From Prolixibacteraceae bacterium (GTDB lineage Bacteria; Bacteroidota; Bacteroidia; Bacteroidales; Prolixibacteraceae): 64,000 bases of DNA. Both the position numbers and the translations under genes were made by a program. The notes under the pieces are model-generated. The model saw nothing but the letters and a program-made list of their open reading frames with translations. It made no database searches and was not told the DNA's origin. Of this stretch, positions 19,451 to 25,513 are shown one piece after another (the stretch's first letter is position 1; each line of letters starts with the position of its first letter). The stretch spans positions 1-64,000 of the forward strand of contig JAFLKN010000012.1 in NCBI GenBank assembly GCA_019163175.1, read 5' to 3'.

Positions 19451-19539
19451 AGCGGATGACCGGAATCGAACCGGCGCCGAAGATTGGATTCTTCAATCAA
19501 GATCTGAAGTCTTGCGTGCTACCTTTACACTACACCCGC
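19451..19539 (-). tRNA. tRNA with anticodon UCA and long variable arm, glycine-type acceptor (reads UGA)
   Basis: An 89-nt cloverleaf folds by eye. The acceptor stem GCGGGTG/CATCCGC has U73. The D-stem is GTGT/GCAC. The anticodon stem CAAGA/TCTTG carries loop CTTCAGA (anticodon at 19505-19507). A variable-arm hairpin (GAAGA/TCTTC or GATTG/CAATC) precedes a T-arm with TTCGATT. The acceptor is 7 bp and the T-stem 5 bp, so this is not tRNA-Sec (8 bp). Known bacterial GlyRS identity elements G1-C72, C2-G71, G3-C70, U73 and C35 are all present. The UCA anticodon would read UGA. A class II arm on a glycine-type tRNA is highly unusual. It fits glycine insertion at the 39 in-frame TGA codons of the nearby subtilases. 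Confidence 0.85.
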
Positions 19540-19551
19540 TAATATTTTTTG

Positions 19552-19643
19552 CACGGGCAGCCGGAATCGAACCGGCTCTGAGGGGTTGGAGACCCCAGCC
19601 CGGCCCCGAAAGCCGGTGTGCATAGCCATTACACTATACCCGT
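19552..19643 (-). tRNA. tRNA with anticodon UCG and long variable arm, Trp-like acceptor ends (reads CGA)
   Basis: A 92-nt cloverleaf. The acceptor stem ACGGGTA/TGCCCGT has G73. The D-stem is GTGT/GCAC and the anticodon stem CCGGC/GCCGG has loop TTTCGGG (anticodon at 19607-19609). The variable-arm hairpin is GGGGT/ACCCC and the T-stem GCCGG/CCGGC. The anticodon would normally mean arginine, but bacterial tRNA-Arg has a short variable loop. A1-U72, G3-C70 and G73 are shared with tRNA-Trp identity elements. Because CGA aligns with TGG between the two recoded genes, tryptophan is the best guess. SerRS charging through the long arm is the alternative. It shares the GGGTRTAGTGTAA 5' segment with its neighbours. 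Confidence 0.82.
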
Positions 19644-19669: not shown

Positions 19670-19760
19670 CAAGGGTAACGGGAATCGAACCCATTACTGG
19701 AGATTGGAGGCTCCAAATCCAGCCTCGGAGACTGGCTTGCTGCCGTTACACTATACCCTT
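19670..19760 (-). tRNA. tRNA with anticodon CCG and long variable arm, Trp-like acceptor ends (reads CGG)
   Basis: A 91-nt cloverleaf. The acceptor stem AAGGGTA/TACCCTT has G73. The short D-stem has a 10-25 mismatch. The anticodon stem CCAGT/GCTGG (one G-U) has loop CTCCGAG (anticodon at 19726-19728). The variable-arm hairpin is TTGGA/TCCAA and the T-stem ATGGG/CCCGT. It is first in the transcript, 15 nt behind a -7 element. No CGG codon was seen in the two recoded genes, so its use there is unproven. The common 5' segment and arm type indicate that the three tRNAs derive from one ancestor and diverged at acceptor and anticodon. Confidence 0.8.
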
Positions 19761-19850: not shown

Positions 19851-20834
19851 ATGCCTAACGGAATTAGTTGCCGCTGGCTGGCCGACCGACTAGGATGTGC
19901 CGACAAACATAATGAACTAAAAAAAGCGCTTACTCACAAGAGTTTTTTCAAGGAAGAGGATTCGGAACAATCGAATAGTCGGTATGTTTTTATTGGGATG
20001 TTCGGGTTTAAAGGAAAGGTCGCCGAAACTCTTTTCAATTATCTGCCAGGTTCGGGGACTCAACTACAACATTATCTGGGTAATCTTTTTAAAGACGAAA
20101 CACTTTTAAAAATATACAAGACCCATCATTTGGATGAACTTTGTCGATATGGTTACACTTTCGACATCGAAAAGCAAAAACATATTTTGGTTTATGGCTT
20201 TCTGGGTTTTGTTTGCCAATGGTTGAGTCCTGAAAAGTTGAGCCAGTTCATCATACGAAATTTCCTTTCCGAAACCAGTCACCTGATGCCCACACAATTT
20301 AAAAACCGTGACCTGCAAAGTCAATGCAACTATTTTTGCCGTTTGGCCTGTCGCGGAAATGCGATAGTTACTACTAAAATCATCAATGAATTTTTATTCA
20401 GGAGTTCGGTATCAGCAGGGAATGTGCTTATTTGCGAAGCCGAAAGCAAAAGTTACCGCTATTCGCGCAAAAAAGCATTGAAGCATGCGCTTTTAATTTT
20501 GAGCGCCCCTGAAAGGGTTAAATTGGATTATGATATAGATTACCAGCAACGTGAAGAACAACGTCAACTTAAAGAAATCAATGAAGCCCAGCGACTGAAA
20601 AATGAAAAATTGGCTGCCTATCTTGAAAAAAAGGAAAGGGTACAGAAGTTAAGGCGGGATGAACGGGAAAAAGCCAAAGTGTTGGCTTCCGAACGCGAAG
20701 TTGAACGAAAAAAGGCAAAAGCCCGTGCCAAAGCCCGGATTGAAGCCCGAAAGAAGGTCGCTGAAAACAGGAAATCTTCTATTTTAACCCTGAGTACCGC
20801 CAAGCGAAGGCATTTGGAAGACAAGAAGAAATGA
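19851..20834 (+). CDS. Divergent RNase III-like protein with basic coiled-coil tail
   Basis: A 327-residue cytoplasmic protein. Residues about 20-60 (ELKKALTHKSFFKEED, then SRYVFIGMFGFKGKVAETL) follow the layout of an RNase III nuclease domain (LxxALTHxSF, NERLEFLGD). The acidic signature ERLEFLGD is lost, so catalysis is doubtful. Residues about 225-327 are a long Lys/Arg/Glu-rich coiled coil suited to RNA or ribosome binding. It uses the host code: it ends with TGA, and CGA/CGG sit in clearly basic repeats (EVERKKAKARAK). It lies between the odd tRNAs and the recoded genes, divergent from the tRNAs. A link to that system is speculative. Confidence 0.6.
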   Translation: MPNGISCRWLADRLGCADKHNELKKALTHKSFFKEEDSEQSNSRYVFIGMFGFKGKVAETLFNYLPGSGTQLQHYLGNLFKDETLLKIYKTHHLDELCRYGYTFDIEKQKHILVYGFLGFVCQWLSPEKLSQFIIRNFLSETSHLMPTQFKNRDLQSQCNYFCRLACRGNAIVTTKIINEFLFRSSVSAGNVLICEAESKSYRYSRKKALKHALLILSAPERVKLDYDIDYQQREEQRQLKEINEAQRLKNEKLAAYLEKKERVQKLRRDEREKAKVLASEREVERKKAKARAKARIEARKKVAENRKSSILTLSTAKRRHLEDKKK

Positions 20835-21064: not shown

Positions 21065-22915
21065 TTATGGTGAACCGGTTTTAACAATTTTGTACAGGCT
21101 TGTTTTGCCATTCTGGTAACCAATACGCAGCAAATACACACCATTATTCAAACCGGCAAGCGATACGCTGATGCTGGTTTGCTGGTTGCTGGTTTGCTGG
21201 CTGACGACCTGCCCCGAAAGGGTGCGGAGTTCGATGGTTTTTAATGGCTCGCTGGCCTCGATAAACAGTTGGATGCCGGCAGGGTTGGGGTAAACAAGCG
21301 TTTGGGCTTTTGCAATTTCTTTGCTTCCGGTTGGGTAGGTGATATTAACGAGCCTGTCGATTGGGAACTGGTAGGTTTTGCCCTGATACTGGCAGTCGCC
21401 TTCGAAAACTACTTTATACTTGCCGGGTTTTTGTTTTGAAACATCAACAAAATACCCTTTTTCATCTTTTTCAACAATTGATCAACTGATGCGGTAGGTA
21501 GATGGCCAGTTGTTTACAGCCAGATAGTACTTCCCATCATTTTTAGTTAATGATTGTTTTATTTCAGGGAAAATATTTTCTTTCATAGTCTTTCATGGCT
21601 GTACTACACCATAACCAAATCGTTCATTCCAACCATTGGCGTCATACTTCACCTCACTATCATAATAAGTCTGAGTAGCTCGATCCAATGCTTTCATTTT
21701 GCCAGGGTTAGGCTTGTATACATCTCTTTTTAGCATAGATATGAGTTCGTCCTTGGTCCAATTGGGATTTTGTGCTCGCAGGTTGGCAGCTATACCACTC
21801 ATGAGCGCTGTAGCCTCGGACACAGTCCACTCTCATAGAGTACAAAAACCATCTCAATGCATCTTACCTGTTTGTCCACCCAATGATGGATTTCCACCAG
21901 GCTCTGTCACTACCCAATCCTTTTGTTCATCAGAGAAACTAAGTTTACCAGTCTGCGTATCTACCACATTGAAGCCTGGCGACTGTACATATCATACTTC
22001 TACAGTGGCTGGATGCACGGCATAAGTGTCAGTTATATCGACAGATTGAGGATTACTTCTTCAAGTAAAAATTATAACATTAGACATATCTCAAAGTTTA
22101 TCGTATAATTCTTTTAATTTATTAACACCTCCTGTTCGAGAACAAGATAATATATATTTCTTATCAGGATTTTTTAATGCTTCATCATAAATAGAAAAAA
22201 ACGCCTCTTCATTTAGTCATCATCATCAAGTTGGTGATCGAGCATAAAGCCTAGTTTTGCCAGGCCATACTCATACGCTAGATAATGCACCAGGAGTAAA
22301 TCATTCTTCATCCTTATCTTTTTCGGTATAGTTATCTTTTTGCGCTGCCATGACATTTGCCATATGATTCATATGACTTATTCAAGGAGTCACCAAAGGT
22401 AAATTATCGAAATTGAAACTTTTGCTATTTGCCCAATCTACATTTTTCCTATACTCATCACCAATTGTCCTTCATCATGAAGCGACTTTGGTAGTATCTA
22501 TCTGAGAATCTATAATGATGGGTATTATCTTTTCCATATTTGCCTTGTATACGGTCTCATTGAGAAAATTACATGAATCTAAGTCATTATCTATTTCTAT
22601 ATTTTTACCATCTATATCACTCAGATTATTGGCTTCATATCTCTGTCGAGCGTCACCAATAGGATATCTATTACGATAGTAAGTCTTGGTATTGGCATAA
22701 TAGCTTCCATAATGTCTATAGTCAGTAGCTACATTTGGAAGTAGTTTTCATTGTGACTTGAGCATATCTATTGCTTGTTTCTGAGAAGATACACCAGTCA
22801 ATGCTTGTGATTGTACGTTTTCTGCACCAAACAATATCATAGCGGCTATTAGAGATTTTCAGGTTAACGTTTTTAGCTTGAAAGCGAATTGATGACTGAT
22901 ATGAAAAGTTTTCAT
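21065..22915 (-). CDS. Recoded secreted subtilase 1 (UGA=Gly, CGA=Trp) with T9SS sorting tail
   Basis: With the standard code this is a string of fragments. With TGA as glycine it is one 616-residue frame from ATG (22915) to TAA (21065), holding 18 in-frame TGA codons, four of them consecutive (22217-22228). Six CGA codons are best read as Trp. Order: signal peptide (SLIAAMILFGAENVQSQA), S8-type Asp in IIPIIIDSQID, His in GISHMNHMANVMAAQ, SCSWTGG, Ser in EWTVSEATALMSGIAANL, a beta domain (STYRISGSIVEKDEKGYF), then a T9SS type A tail (LVYPNPAGIQLF ... LNNGVYLLRI). The tail means export in Bacteroidota. The body is AT-rich and uses AGA/AGG for Arg, while the tail looks host-like. It lies 13 nt behind its paralogue. 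In the standard code only 18 residues would be made. Confidence 0.9.
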
Positions 22916-22928
22916 CGTGTTTTTATAA

Positions 22929-24938
22929 TTATTGTTTCACTACTTTAAAGGTTTGAAACCCGTTTTTTGTTTCAATACGAAGCAAATACACACCATTATT
23001 TAAACCTGCAAGCGATAAGTTGATGTTGGTTTGCTGGTTGCAGGGCTGGTGGCTAATTACCTGCCCCGAAAGAGTGTGGAGTTCGATGGTTTTTACAGGC
23101 TCGCCGGCCTGGATAAACAACTGGTTGCCGGCAGGGTTGGGGTAAACAAGCGTTTGGGCCTGTGCCATCTCTGTGCTTCCGGTTGGGTTGGTGATGGTAA
23201 CAAGCCTGTCGATTGGGAATGGATAGGTTTTGCCCTCATAATCGCAGTCGCCTTCGAATACAATGCGGTAAGTTCCAGGTGCTTGTTTTGGTACATCAAT
23301 AAAATAACCTTGTTCGTCTTTTTCAACAATGCCTCAGGTAATGCGGTAGGTGGATGGCCAGTTGTTCACGGTCAGGTAGTATTTCCCATCATTTTTAGTT
23401 AATGATTCTTTTATTTCGGGGAAAATATTTTCTTTCATAGTCTTTCATGGTTGTACTACACCGTACCCAAACCATTCATTCCAGTCGTGGGAATCATATT
23501 GTACTTCAACAAAAGTTGGATTATCTCAATAAATAGGGTAAGAATATTCATTATAACCGATAACCGGATATACCGGAATTTTGCCGGGAAGTGGTTTGTA
23601 AGTATCCCTTTTTAATATTGCTAAAATCTCATTTCTGTTCCATGAGGGATTTTGTGCTCGTATGTTGGCCGTCATGGCAGATAAAAAGGCTGTAGATTGA
23701 GATGTAGCGTTTTGTCCTAATATACAAAACCCATCTCACTTCATCTTGCCTGTTTGAGGGCTATCCATAGGCACAACCCAATCCTGATGGTCTCCTGTAA
23801 AACTAACATCCGCATTTAACGTACCGATTCCATTATTTATAAATAAATGACTATTTACACTCATGTCGGGTTCATTCACGAGTCATACTTCGATGGTGTT
23901 TGGATGATGGGCGTATGTATCATCCTCCTGCATTCCTCAAAATTGTCTGCCTACAAAAATTATTACATTGGGCAAATCTCAAAGTTTAGTAAATCCATTA
24001 AGTGTAGCCTCCGACACTCATACCCATGAACAAGAAATAATATATTTTTTATCTGGGTTGATTTTAGCTTCATTGTATATATTATCAAGTGCTACATGAT
24101 TGTAAGCTGTTCAACCTCACGCTAGGGAAATAACATACAATCTTGCTTTGCCCGGCCATACTCCTACAGCAAGTCTTCCAAATTGTTGTTCTCCTCAAGA
24201 AGATCAAGGGATGCCTGAACTATAAAGATAATTCTCTTCAGTATAATTATCTTTTTTTGCAATCATTACATCAGCCATTGCATTCATGTGTGTACCAAAC
24301 TTAAATCAAGTTCAGGTTTTCGTGGTAAGTGTCTCTTTGTTTGGAGATCAATCAATAAAACTTCGACTGTTTGCTCGATCAACTCTTTCGTATTCACCAG
24401 GAGCAGCTCATAGTGTATCTATCTGAGTATCTATAATTATAGGTATTATTTTATCCAGATTTGCCTTGTAAACTGTTTCATTGAGAAAATTACAAGAATC
24501 CACATCATTGTCTATTTCTATATTTTTTATTCCATTCAGGGTTTTTACATTTTTAAGATTATTTGCTTCATATTTTCACCAATCTCCAGAAGGATAGAAG
24601 TTGTATATATACTCTTTAAATTCTCCTGTATGTCTTCTTGTTCCGTAATGTTGAAAGTCGGTAGGAACGTTGGGCAACAACTTACCCTGTGATTTGAGAA
24701 GTTCAATAGCTTGTTTCTGAGAAGTAGTTCAAATTAATACTTGAGCTTCTATCTTACTAGCACCAAATAAAATCAAGGCAGAAACAAGGGCCTTTCAGGT
24801 TAAATTCTTGAGGAGGTTTTGGTTAAACCCGGAGTGTTGGGCCAAACAAATTCCTGCTCAGGACAATTGTGTTCTGAGTAATGATTTTACAATGCCGGTA
24901 ATGTTAAAAAGCGTTCAGTTCAGTTCCTTTTTCTTCAT
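22929..24938 (-). CDS. Recoded secreted subtilase 2 (UGA=Gly, CGA=Trp) with T9SS sorting tail
   Basis: A 669-residue frame from ATG (24938) to TAA (22929) with 21 in-frame TGA and no internal TAA/TAG. It is a paralogue of the next gene, with the same layout: hydrophobic signal (LVSALILFGASKIEAQ) after a long N-terminal stretch, Asp in IIPIIIDTQID, His in FGTHMNAMADVM, SCSWVGV, Ser in QNATSQSTAFLSAMTANI, then FGYGVVQPGKTMKENIF and a T9SS tail ending FQTFKVVKQ. TGA here faces GGN in the paralogue at QVLI-G-TTSQ and SCSWV-G; CGA in VD-W-ANS faces TGG. The oxyanion Asn is not evident, so activity is uncertain. A downstream TTG could be the real start, since the first 45 residues have no counterpart. 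It is first gene of the pair; the standard code would give 7 residues. Confidence 0.9.
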
Positions 24939-25513
24939 AGTTATGCAAATGGCTCAAAGAGCCTTTAAAACTGGTCAACATCGGTCTGTTCCTCAACAGA
25001 AACAAAAACAAGGGAAAACACAGCTTTGAGTAATTGTCTGTCCAAACAGGATTTCGTCCGGAGTCTTTACCTTGCATCCCTGCAAACGCTCTTACAACAA
25101 ACTACGTCAAACTGTTTACTGCTGCTTTTCCTTCTGTTTTTCTTCACTTGGCTCCAGCGCATGAACAGGGACAACTGCTATGCCCGGCAACCCATTCCGT
25201 TTTTCATTGGTTCAGAAGAAGTTAACAAGTACGTTAATGAACATGATTATTAAAAACGAATATAAGGTTTTTGGTTAACAAAAAGCGAGTAAAGGAAAAA
25301 ATATGCACAATGCGATTAGGCATCGAATGTGTGTAGAAAGGGGAAAAGGGGATGGTTATTCCGTCCCGGATGGGATGGAATAATTAACCGATGAACGTTT
25401 TTTCTATCCACATTTTGTCCTTGGAGGGACACCGATATGTCACGCGAATCGTTGTTGCTACCTACATCATTTCCCTCACGGGACTTTTAAATGGATCAGG
25501 ACTAAGAATCTCT
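24939..25513. other. Gene-free stretch upstream of the recoded operon
   Basis: I see no convincing gene in these 575 nt. Short frames on the plus strand (25026-25253) have no recognisable domain. A 13-nt palindrome (GGCTC-TTT-GAGCC sense, 24951-24963) lies just upstream of the first subtilase. An imperfect hairpin (TTATTCC/GGAATAA with an inner TCCC/GGGA, 25356-25383) and further short inverted repeats lie toward 25500. The promoter of the subtilase operon is expected here, but I find no clear TAnnTTTG match. Confidence 0.5.
25356..25383. repeat. REP-like imperfect palindrome on the right flank
   Basis: The outer stem TTATTCC/GGAATAA and inner stem TCCC/GGGA resemble in style the palindromes at 20849-20941 on the other side of the recoded genes. 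Confidence 0.4.

Follow-up and report, generated by a model that had tools for sequence, protein, structure and literature searches.

How can two long genes carrying 39 in-frame TGA codons between them be expressed by a bacterium that also ends its proteins with TGA? The question is raised by a 64,000-nt stretch of contig JAFLKN010000012.1 from a Prolixibacteraceae bacterium (the window, to whose positions all bare coordinates refer), in which two paralogous genes on the minus strand lie close to the genes of three tRNAs whose variable arms are long and to that of a putative RNA-binding partner protein. We consider it likely that these elements form a private-code module, composed of dedicated tRNAs, mRNAs that carry a tag and the partner protein, in a bacterium whose other genes follow the standard code. 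The identity of the tRNAs, the co-occurrence of the parts and an RNA leader upstream of such genes are seen in the sequence; the charging of the tRNAs, the decoding and its restriction to tagged mRNAs are what we infer.

The two genes end in domains of the type IX secretion system (T9SS):

22929..24938, minus strand: recoded gene A, an S8-type peptidase homologue of 669 residues from its ATG, with 21 TGA and 3 CGA codons and a T9SS type A tail
22941..23147, minus strand: T9SS C-terminal sorting domain of gene A, within its TGA- and CGA-free end
21065..22915, minus strand: recoded gene B, a paralogue of gene A of 616 residues, with 18 TGA and 6 CGA codons and a T9SS type A tail
21083..21295, minus strand: T9SS C-terminal sorting domain of gene B, within its TGA- and CGA-free end

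The original prediction held that these frames are open only if TGA is a sense codon, and translation bears this out: with 18 (gene B) and 21 (gene A) in-frame TGA codons, the 616 and 669 residues are encoded without a single internal TAA or TAG in 1,285 codons. Base composition predicts 65 such codons, and in 300 shuffles of the region the longest run free of TAA and TAG was 256 codons. Gene B starts 13 nt downstream of gene A. When the suggested profile search was run with TGA as glycine, PF00082 matched at 37.6 bits in gene B and 26.9 bits in gene A (cut-off 21.8), and the T9SS type A sorting domain TIGR04183 matched at 48.2 and 53.4 bits in the two genes (cut-off 23). Plausible motifs for the Asp/His/Ser triad of S8 peptidases (IIID, GTH/SH and TSQSTA/TVSEATA) were judged by eye only. 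The two proteins are 61% identical (protein alignment A7), and their genes differ at 100, 51 and 167 first, second and third codon positions, respectively, over 421 well-aligned codons; this third-position excess is the pattern that would be expected under selection on the protein. Neither TGA nor CGA occurs in the last ~130 codons of either gene, where the G+C content (GC) is 0.46, compared to 0.36 in the recoded parts and ~0.42 in the window. Because body and tail differ in both GC and TGA/CGA content, each gene is, to judge from its composition, a mosaic in which a low-GC recoded body is followed by a secretion tail that keeps to ordinary codons.

To assign a meaning to TGA and CGA, we relied on columns in which the paralogues are well aligned locally (strict columns); these hold 9 of the 18 TGA codons of gene B and 8 of the 21 of gene A, as well as 3 of 6 and 1 of 3 CGA codons. 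TGA stands opposite GGN in four of five such columns, and six further columns pair TGA with TGA. When the paralogue alignment is taken in full, with its poor regions, GGN stands opposite 9 of the 39 TGA codons, TGA opposite 14 (7 columns) and a gap opposite 4. Of the five motifs at which TGA was earlier said to face GGN, the fifth, SCSW-x-G, has GGA as the opposing codon and lies outside the strict columns. That TGA never faces TGG is true of the whole alignment. The strict columns support reading UGA as glycine rather than tryptophan, and the glycine-type tRNA described below argues for it more strongly. CGA, for its part, faces TGG in both of the informative strict columns, with one further column pairing CGA with CGA; across the whole alignment, the nine CGA codons face TGG three times, CGA twice and a gap once. 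From these few sites, CGA seems to stand for tryptophan in genes A and B. The earlier assignment to NCBI code 25 is consequently supported for UGA and incomplete otherwise, as the pair of meanings is that of the Absconditabacteria code, in which UGA is glycine and CGA and CGG are tryptophan (according to the available part of PMC8629427), and not that of table 25 alone. The surrounding genes do use TGA as a stop, as had been stated: among 38 host-type open reading frames (ORFs), selected under table 11 from the window only, five end in TGA. These ORFs contain 74 CGA and 122 CGG codons in 17,217 codons.

Three tRNA genes are found 1.3 kb from genes A and B, on the same strand:

19451..19539, minus strand: tRNA with anticodon UCA (reads UGA), 7/5 fold, long variable arm, G1:C72, C2:G71, G3:C70 and U73
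19552..19643, minus strand: tRNA with anticodon UCG (reads CGA, perhaps CGG), long variable arm, A1:U72 and G73 (Trp-type)
19670..19760, minus strand: tRNA with anticodon CCG (reads CGG), long variable arm, A1:U72 and G73 (Trp-type)

In a covariance alignment, tRNA(UCA) has the acceptor stem GCGGGTG/CATCCGC followed by U73, which is the glycine identity set; the features given for Gly-tRNA(UCA) in the available part of PMC8629427 are the ones found here. The same source gives G73, with support from A/G1:U72, as the rule for tryptophan identity, and the UCG and CCG tRNAs fit it. Furthermore, the first five acceptor pairs of tRNA(UCG) are identical to those of the host tRNA-Trp(CCA). The host genome also has its own tRNA-Gly and ordinary tRNA-Arg(ACG) and tRNA-Arg(CCG). 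ARAGORN labels tRNA(UCA) as tRNA-Sec, a call at odds with the 7/5 fold and U73 of the covariance alignment. The three tRNAs resemble each other (80% mean column identity), and a model built from them scores 96-99 bits here and at best 46 bits elsewhere in 22 congeners, some of them incomplete; two congener matches that were checked proved to be ordinary tRNA-Gly. In a sample of the class, 5 of 394 other genomes exceeded the threshold of the tRNA model, and ARAGORN identified these matches as ordinary tRNA-Gly or tRNA-Leu. In this and the other large searches the best 11-20 candidates were scored per genome, and the numbers of carriers are lower bounds.

Similar tRNAs from other genomes (loci outside the window are named by a letter and a number) extend the family to 18 members in 10 genomes, aligned by fitting to a model (R1) towards which the alignment leans. 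All 12 UCA tRNAs have G1:C72, C2:G71, G3:C70 and U73, with seven acceptor pairs and five T-stem pairs, and all five UCG/CCG tRNAs have A or G1:U72 and G73. The helix of the variable arm shows compensatory changes in five of its five pairs, and 89.7% of its cells pair in this model-fitted alignment. The eighteenth member has the anticodon CUA, G1:C72 and G73; this tRNA (reads UAG; L106:10786-10877, plus strand; labelled tRNA-Pyl by ARAGORN) lies 1.4 kb from a UCA tRNA in Marinospirillum perlucidum, and a scan of Marinospirillum with TAG as sense yielded nothing clear. A nineteenth sequence, excluded from the family counts, is probably a decayed copy (L200:416-506, plus strand, 47.4 bits): its acceptor and variable arm are intact (A1:U72, G73), its T arm looks broken, and its anticodon, read by eye, is CAG. 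Short tRNA(UCA) genes with GCGGG 5' ends were also encountered in a Streptococcus tRNA cluster (L083:596-666, plus strand) and in alphaproteobacterial and Elusimicrobia records (L085:156-226 and L080:276-346, both minus strand); they are possible single-gene glycine suppressors.

Between the tRNAs and genes A and B is the gene of the partner protein:

19851..20834, plus strand: partner protein with a putative RNase III-like domain, a segment resembling a double-stranded RNA-binding domain (dsRBD) and a long basic stretch

Its matches to RNase III profiles are below the cut-offs (PF14622, 29.9 bits; TIGR02191, 22 bits, E 1e-4). In a weak match to a solved RNase III (E 0.21), the signature NERLEFLGD lies opposite N-S-R-x-V-F-x-G-M, and all four partner homologues have N(S/G)R(Y/L/F)VFxGM at this place, with the acidic positions replaced by S/G, V and M. 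We take the acidic residues of NERLEFLGD to be the catalytic ones of RNase III, and by this mismatch the partner is predicted to lack them. All four homologues share a KRRxL(E/D)DKKK end, one of them has a sub-threshold dsRBD match, and PADLOC returned no match for any of the four proteins.

The same kind of UCA tRNA is present in six proteobacterial-type genomes (8 loci). At seven of the eight loci it is accompanied by a different protein of ~250 residues, within 160 nt of the tRNA at six loci and ~5 kb away in L106, with none seen in L109. Four clear TGA-rich frames, the presumed cargo, lie within 2.6 kb of the tRNA in three of these genomes:

L105, 11322-13424: 20 TGA codons; outer-membrane and Ig-like by eye
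L107, 11462-12196: 10 TGA codons
L107, 7591-8199: 7 TGA codons, apparently truncated
L205, 12615-13130 plus stop: 4 TGA codons

The L105 frame contains TDADxDNL, where x is a TGA codon; we take DADGD, with glycine at this position, to be a common motif. No convincing Pfam domain was found in this frame under six readings. Comparison of the L205 and L107 frames reveals three internal TGA positions in common, and a TGA in the leader peptide of L107 stands opposite GGT; poorly aligned parts were excluded from these counts. The cargo is low in GC (0.33-0.34 in L107 and 0.36 in L205, versus 0.52 and 0.55 in their loci). L205 sits on a single contig of 4,323,754 bases, making a binning error less likely. 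Two paralogues from Marinospirillum are weaker cases: their TGA codons fall within or close to a putative signal peptide, apart from one more, which has glycine opposite it in the other copy. A control scan of 1.37 Mb of DNA gave seven frames with TGA as sense, compared to none with TAG and three with TAA; three of the seven (a minus-strand frame of L107, L207 and L208) were judged to be fusions or chance, and the other four are the clear frames listed above.

The shorter L107 cargo fragment (within L107:7300-8199, plus strand) follows a piece that by eye resembles a group II intron reverse transcriptase, which has probably cut the frame. Dispersed repeats of ~100 nt, 75-92% alike, occur in L205 (10087-10188, 10989-11213, 11904-12276 and 14100-14186), where they flank the partner gene and precede the leader; similar repeats are found near the tRNAs of L107, L108 and L109.

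Upstream of the cargo starts in L205, L107, both Marinospirillum paralogues and L105 is a similar sequence of ~250 nt, the leader, although by eye the mature proteins of L105, L106 and L107/L205 have no evident similarity. Relative to 100 shuffles each, the leader pairs score z 18.2 (L205/L106), 12.5 (L106/L105) and 5.2 (L205/L105). The 3' end of the leader lies 36 to 56 nt upstream of the putative start codons. Its consensus fold has 68 pairs, 36-38 of them with compensatory changes (both sides changed with pairing kept), a degree of covariation reached in none of 500 shuffles, and 92.6% pairing, versus 36-52% for slid partners. The fold was derived from these same five leaders, which include two close pairs (98% and 92%) and so amount to about three independent sequences. 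Two leaders searched against Rfam gave no match. Leader and cargo seem to have been exchanged: L107:11010-11493 and L205:12178-12646 are 92% identical over the leader and first codons but continue into different mature proteins, and the homologue of the L205 body is a separate L107 frame. The A-B pair has a candidate leader of its own:

25005..25262, minus strand: candidate leader of the A-B pair, resembling the L200 leader that precedes an unrelated TGA-containing frame

The local score of the gene A and L200 leaders is 49 (z 4.9), a score that none of 594 random pieces reached.

Within the Bacteroidota, a scan of the contig collection with a tRNA(UCA) pattern gave 11 loci, one of which is a Bacteroidaceae record (G457) with UCA and UCG tRNAs, and when 393 genomes of the order were searched with a covariance model, the UCA and UCG pair turned up in 2 of the 392 besides the window's genome. 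The RNase III-like gene adjoins the tRNAs at all four Bacteroidota loci (the window, the two of the order and G457). In the 395-genome class sample, which apparently does not include the other three carriers, the RNase III-like partner was found only in the window's genome. At L200, also from the Bacteroidota, the next frame encodes a putative secreted protein with an in-frame TGA upstream of a hydrophobic segment (a signal peptide by eye); read by eye, no in-frame ATG, GTG or TTG lies between the two. A possible second TGA-containing secreted gene starts at L200:2834-2960 (plus strand; MTMINKLxKTNKPLQNKIKTIITGxALLLAL...), and by eye its frame breaks off ahead of a transposase-like ORF.

How could these parts work together? 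We propose that the glycyl- and tryptophanyl-tRNA synthetases of the host charge the long-variable-arm tRNAs, and that tRNA(UCA) would then decode UGA as glycine, and the UCG and CCG tRNAs CGA and CGG as tryptophan. Since UGA has to remain a stop for the host, and CGA/CGG arginine codons, an unrestricted tRNA set would be harmful. The combination of an RNA-binding partner with a conserved leader on differing cargo suggests that decoding is limited to tagged mRNAs, in the manner of the selenocysteine system though distinct from it: the partner may recognise the long variable arm, the leader or both, and this recognition would keep the reading of UGA as glycine and of CGA as tryptophan largely to such mRNAs and spare the UGA stops and CGA/CGG arginines of the host. 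The cargo would be mainly secreted or surface proteins, represented in the window by the T9SS-tailed S8-type peptidase homologues A and B. The cargo's low GC and the likeness of the codon meanings suggest that the recoded parts probably came from low-GC bacteria of the Absconditabacteria/Gracilibacteria type and were then fused to the host sorting signal. The wider proposal, that a transferable second code, that of the Absconditabacteria or Gracilibacteria, with dedicated tRNAs (for UGA as glycine and, in the Bacteroidota, also for CGA/CGG as tryptophan), an RNA-binding partner and leader-tagged genes for secreted proteins exists in at least two major bacterial groups, the rest of the cell remaining standard, is one to which we give even chances.

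Several observations weigh against the private-code module. The fifth strict TGA column has lysine opposite, 12 of the 39 TGA codons in the whole alignment face residues other than glycine, one further L107 TGA faces AGA in L205, and CGA faces Ile, Tyr and Lys once each in the whole alignment. Genes A and B contain no CGG, leaving tRNA(CCG) without local use. When TGA was set to each of nine residues and the Pfam S8 score compared, no single preference for glycine emerged: the scores in gene B were Ser 42.3, Asn 38.1, Gly 37.6, Ala 37.5, Gln 36.0, X 30.8 and Trp 26.9 bits, and in gene A Asn 33.0, Ser 30.1, Gln 29.7, Asp 27.5, Gly 26.9, X 24.6 and Trp 22.9 bits, so that Gly is outscored by Ser and Asn in either gene; Trp, at or near the bottom, and Cys are disfavoured. 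The leader of the window rests on a single pairwise similarity (z 4.9), and the proteobacterial-type and Bacteroidota leaders have no similarity to each other, nor did hhalign detect any between the RNase III-like and ~250-residue partner families. No clear TGA-rich gene was found near L108, L109, L110 or L111 (L110 and L111 lie near contig ends), or near the module in L104 or L201, and a scan of ~967 kb, about half of the G457 genome, gave no convincing further TGA-rich gene. Finally, the AlphaFold models of the peptidase pair (predicted local distance difference test score, pLDDT, 33) and of the partner alone (pLDDT 50) were unusable and were not used.

Which other explanations could account for the locus? 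The tRNAs could suppress UGA (and CGA/CGG) throughout the cell at low efficiency, which the cargo genes would tolerate, with the partner maturing or stabilising the tRNAs and the leader serving another role, for example in regulation. Suppressor tRNAs are part of the code shift of recoded phages (PMC10746230, in its available part), and no cis element was seen inside the frames, for which no systematic search was made; however, cell-wide misreading and readthrough would be costly with 74 CGA and 122 CGG codons and 5 of 38 ORFs ending in TGA, and a conserved structured leader before differing cargo would still need an explanation. We regard such untargeted decoding as unlikely. Alternatively, the TGA-rich genes could be silent relics imported from a code-25 bacterium of the Absconditabacteria or Gracilibacteria and not fully translated, the tRNA genes being a separate matter. 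The low GC of the recoded parts in the window, L107 and L205 accords with this, as do codon meanings like those of the Absconditabacteria (PMC8629427, available part). Against it, the T9SS tails are of Bacteroidota type and written without TGA, A and B have diverged to 61% identity with a third-position bias and without acquiring TAA or TAG, a matching tRNA set stands next door with no comparable match in 22 congeners, and L205 and L107 have TGA positions in common; silent import is in our view very improbable. UGA might instead stand for a different small or polar amino acid (Ser, Asn or Ala) or be ambiguous in meaning, as the Pfam scores of Ser and Asn and the 12 TGA codons facing other residues would allow, and yet the glycine identity elements in all 12 UCA tRNAs and the GGN opposite TGA in four of five strict columns make such a reading quite doubtful. 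An assembly or binning artefact joining foreign DNA to a Bacteroidota contig is hardly credible, even in a genome of 74 contigs (95.8% complete, 2.25% contamination), because both genes end in T9SS domains, three more Bacteroidota genomes have the tRNAs together with the partner, and a proteobacterial-type version lies on one 4.32 Mb contig.

The private-code module remains our preferred reading. No homologues of the peptidases were found in 60 relatives (best 19 or fewer candidates scored per genome), in 294 genomes of the class sample (best 4 or fewer), in phages, plasmids or IMG/VR, in the nine genomes with tRNA(UCA), or in the general genome contig collection, where the search patterns assumed GGN for glycine. 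The neighbours of the module in the window include ruvC, EamA and a lipoyl-synthase-like gene.

If this reading is true, a single bacterial cytoplasm runs two genetic codes at once; the second is limited to a few genes, occurs in distant groups, and alters not only a stop codon but also the sense codon CGA. It would offer a direct test of how the choice of code can be made by an mRNA when the amino acids are canonical, and a natural part list (tRNAs, partner and leader) for orthogonal translation; it would also point to a way in which genes may pass from code-25 bacteria to ordinary ones. Such a module may let hosts express genes from Absconditabacteria/Gracilibacteria episymbionts or predators, or may keep a surface arsenal unreadable elsewhere. 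Gene callers using table 11 would break such genes. We found no description of such a module in the open full-text literature; subscription papers and preprints were outside the search, and an earlier description is possible.

Parts of the module are reminiscent of known systems. The window partner resembles RNase III in its putative RNase III-like domain and dsRBD-like segment, a combination also present in the mitochondrial ribosomal protein mL44, and differs from RNase III in its replaced catalytic acidic positions and long basic end. As in the suppressor-tRNA recoding of phages, a tRNA encoded nearby would make a stop codon sense in a standard-code host (PMC10746230, available part); here, CGA seems to be changed too, UGA would be read as glycine, and a partner and leader are added, and no relative turned up in the phage, plasmid and IMG/VR searches. 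The allo-tRNAs of Mukai et al. 2017, as reviewed in PMC7609411, are likewise bacterial tRNAs of an unusual kind: their variable arms are long, and their anticodons are at odds with their identity. They have an 8/4 or 9/3 acceptor branch and Ser/Ala identity, and the available part of the review mentions no cargo genes, whereas the window tRNAs are 7/5 in the Rfam and R1 alignments, of Gly or Trp type, and linked to cargo. The selenocysteine system, with SelB and the selenocysteine insertion sequence (SECIS; described in the available part of PMC7609411), has a UCA tRNA whose variable arm is likewise long and, as we propose for the module, relies on a dedicated protein and on a structured element in the mRNA. 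According to the available part of PMC5330540, tRNA-Sec has an 8/5 fold and G73, compared to 7/5 and U73 in all 12 UCA tRNAs here; the putative module moreover would use a canonical amino acid and has many UGA codons per gene, and no SelB-like protein was noticed at the locus, with no search aimed at SelB made. In codon meaning the likeness is to the Absconditabacteria, with which the putative module shares the meanings of UGA and CGA and the glycine identity rule of tRNA(UCA) (PMC8629427, available part). There the code applies to the whole organism and, in the window, to a few genes among standard-code genes for which UGA is still a stop, and the window tRNAs are set apart by their long variable arms and their partner protein.

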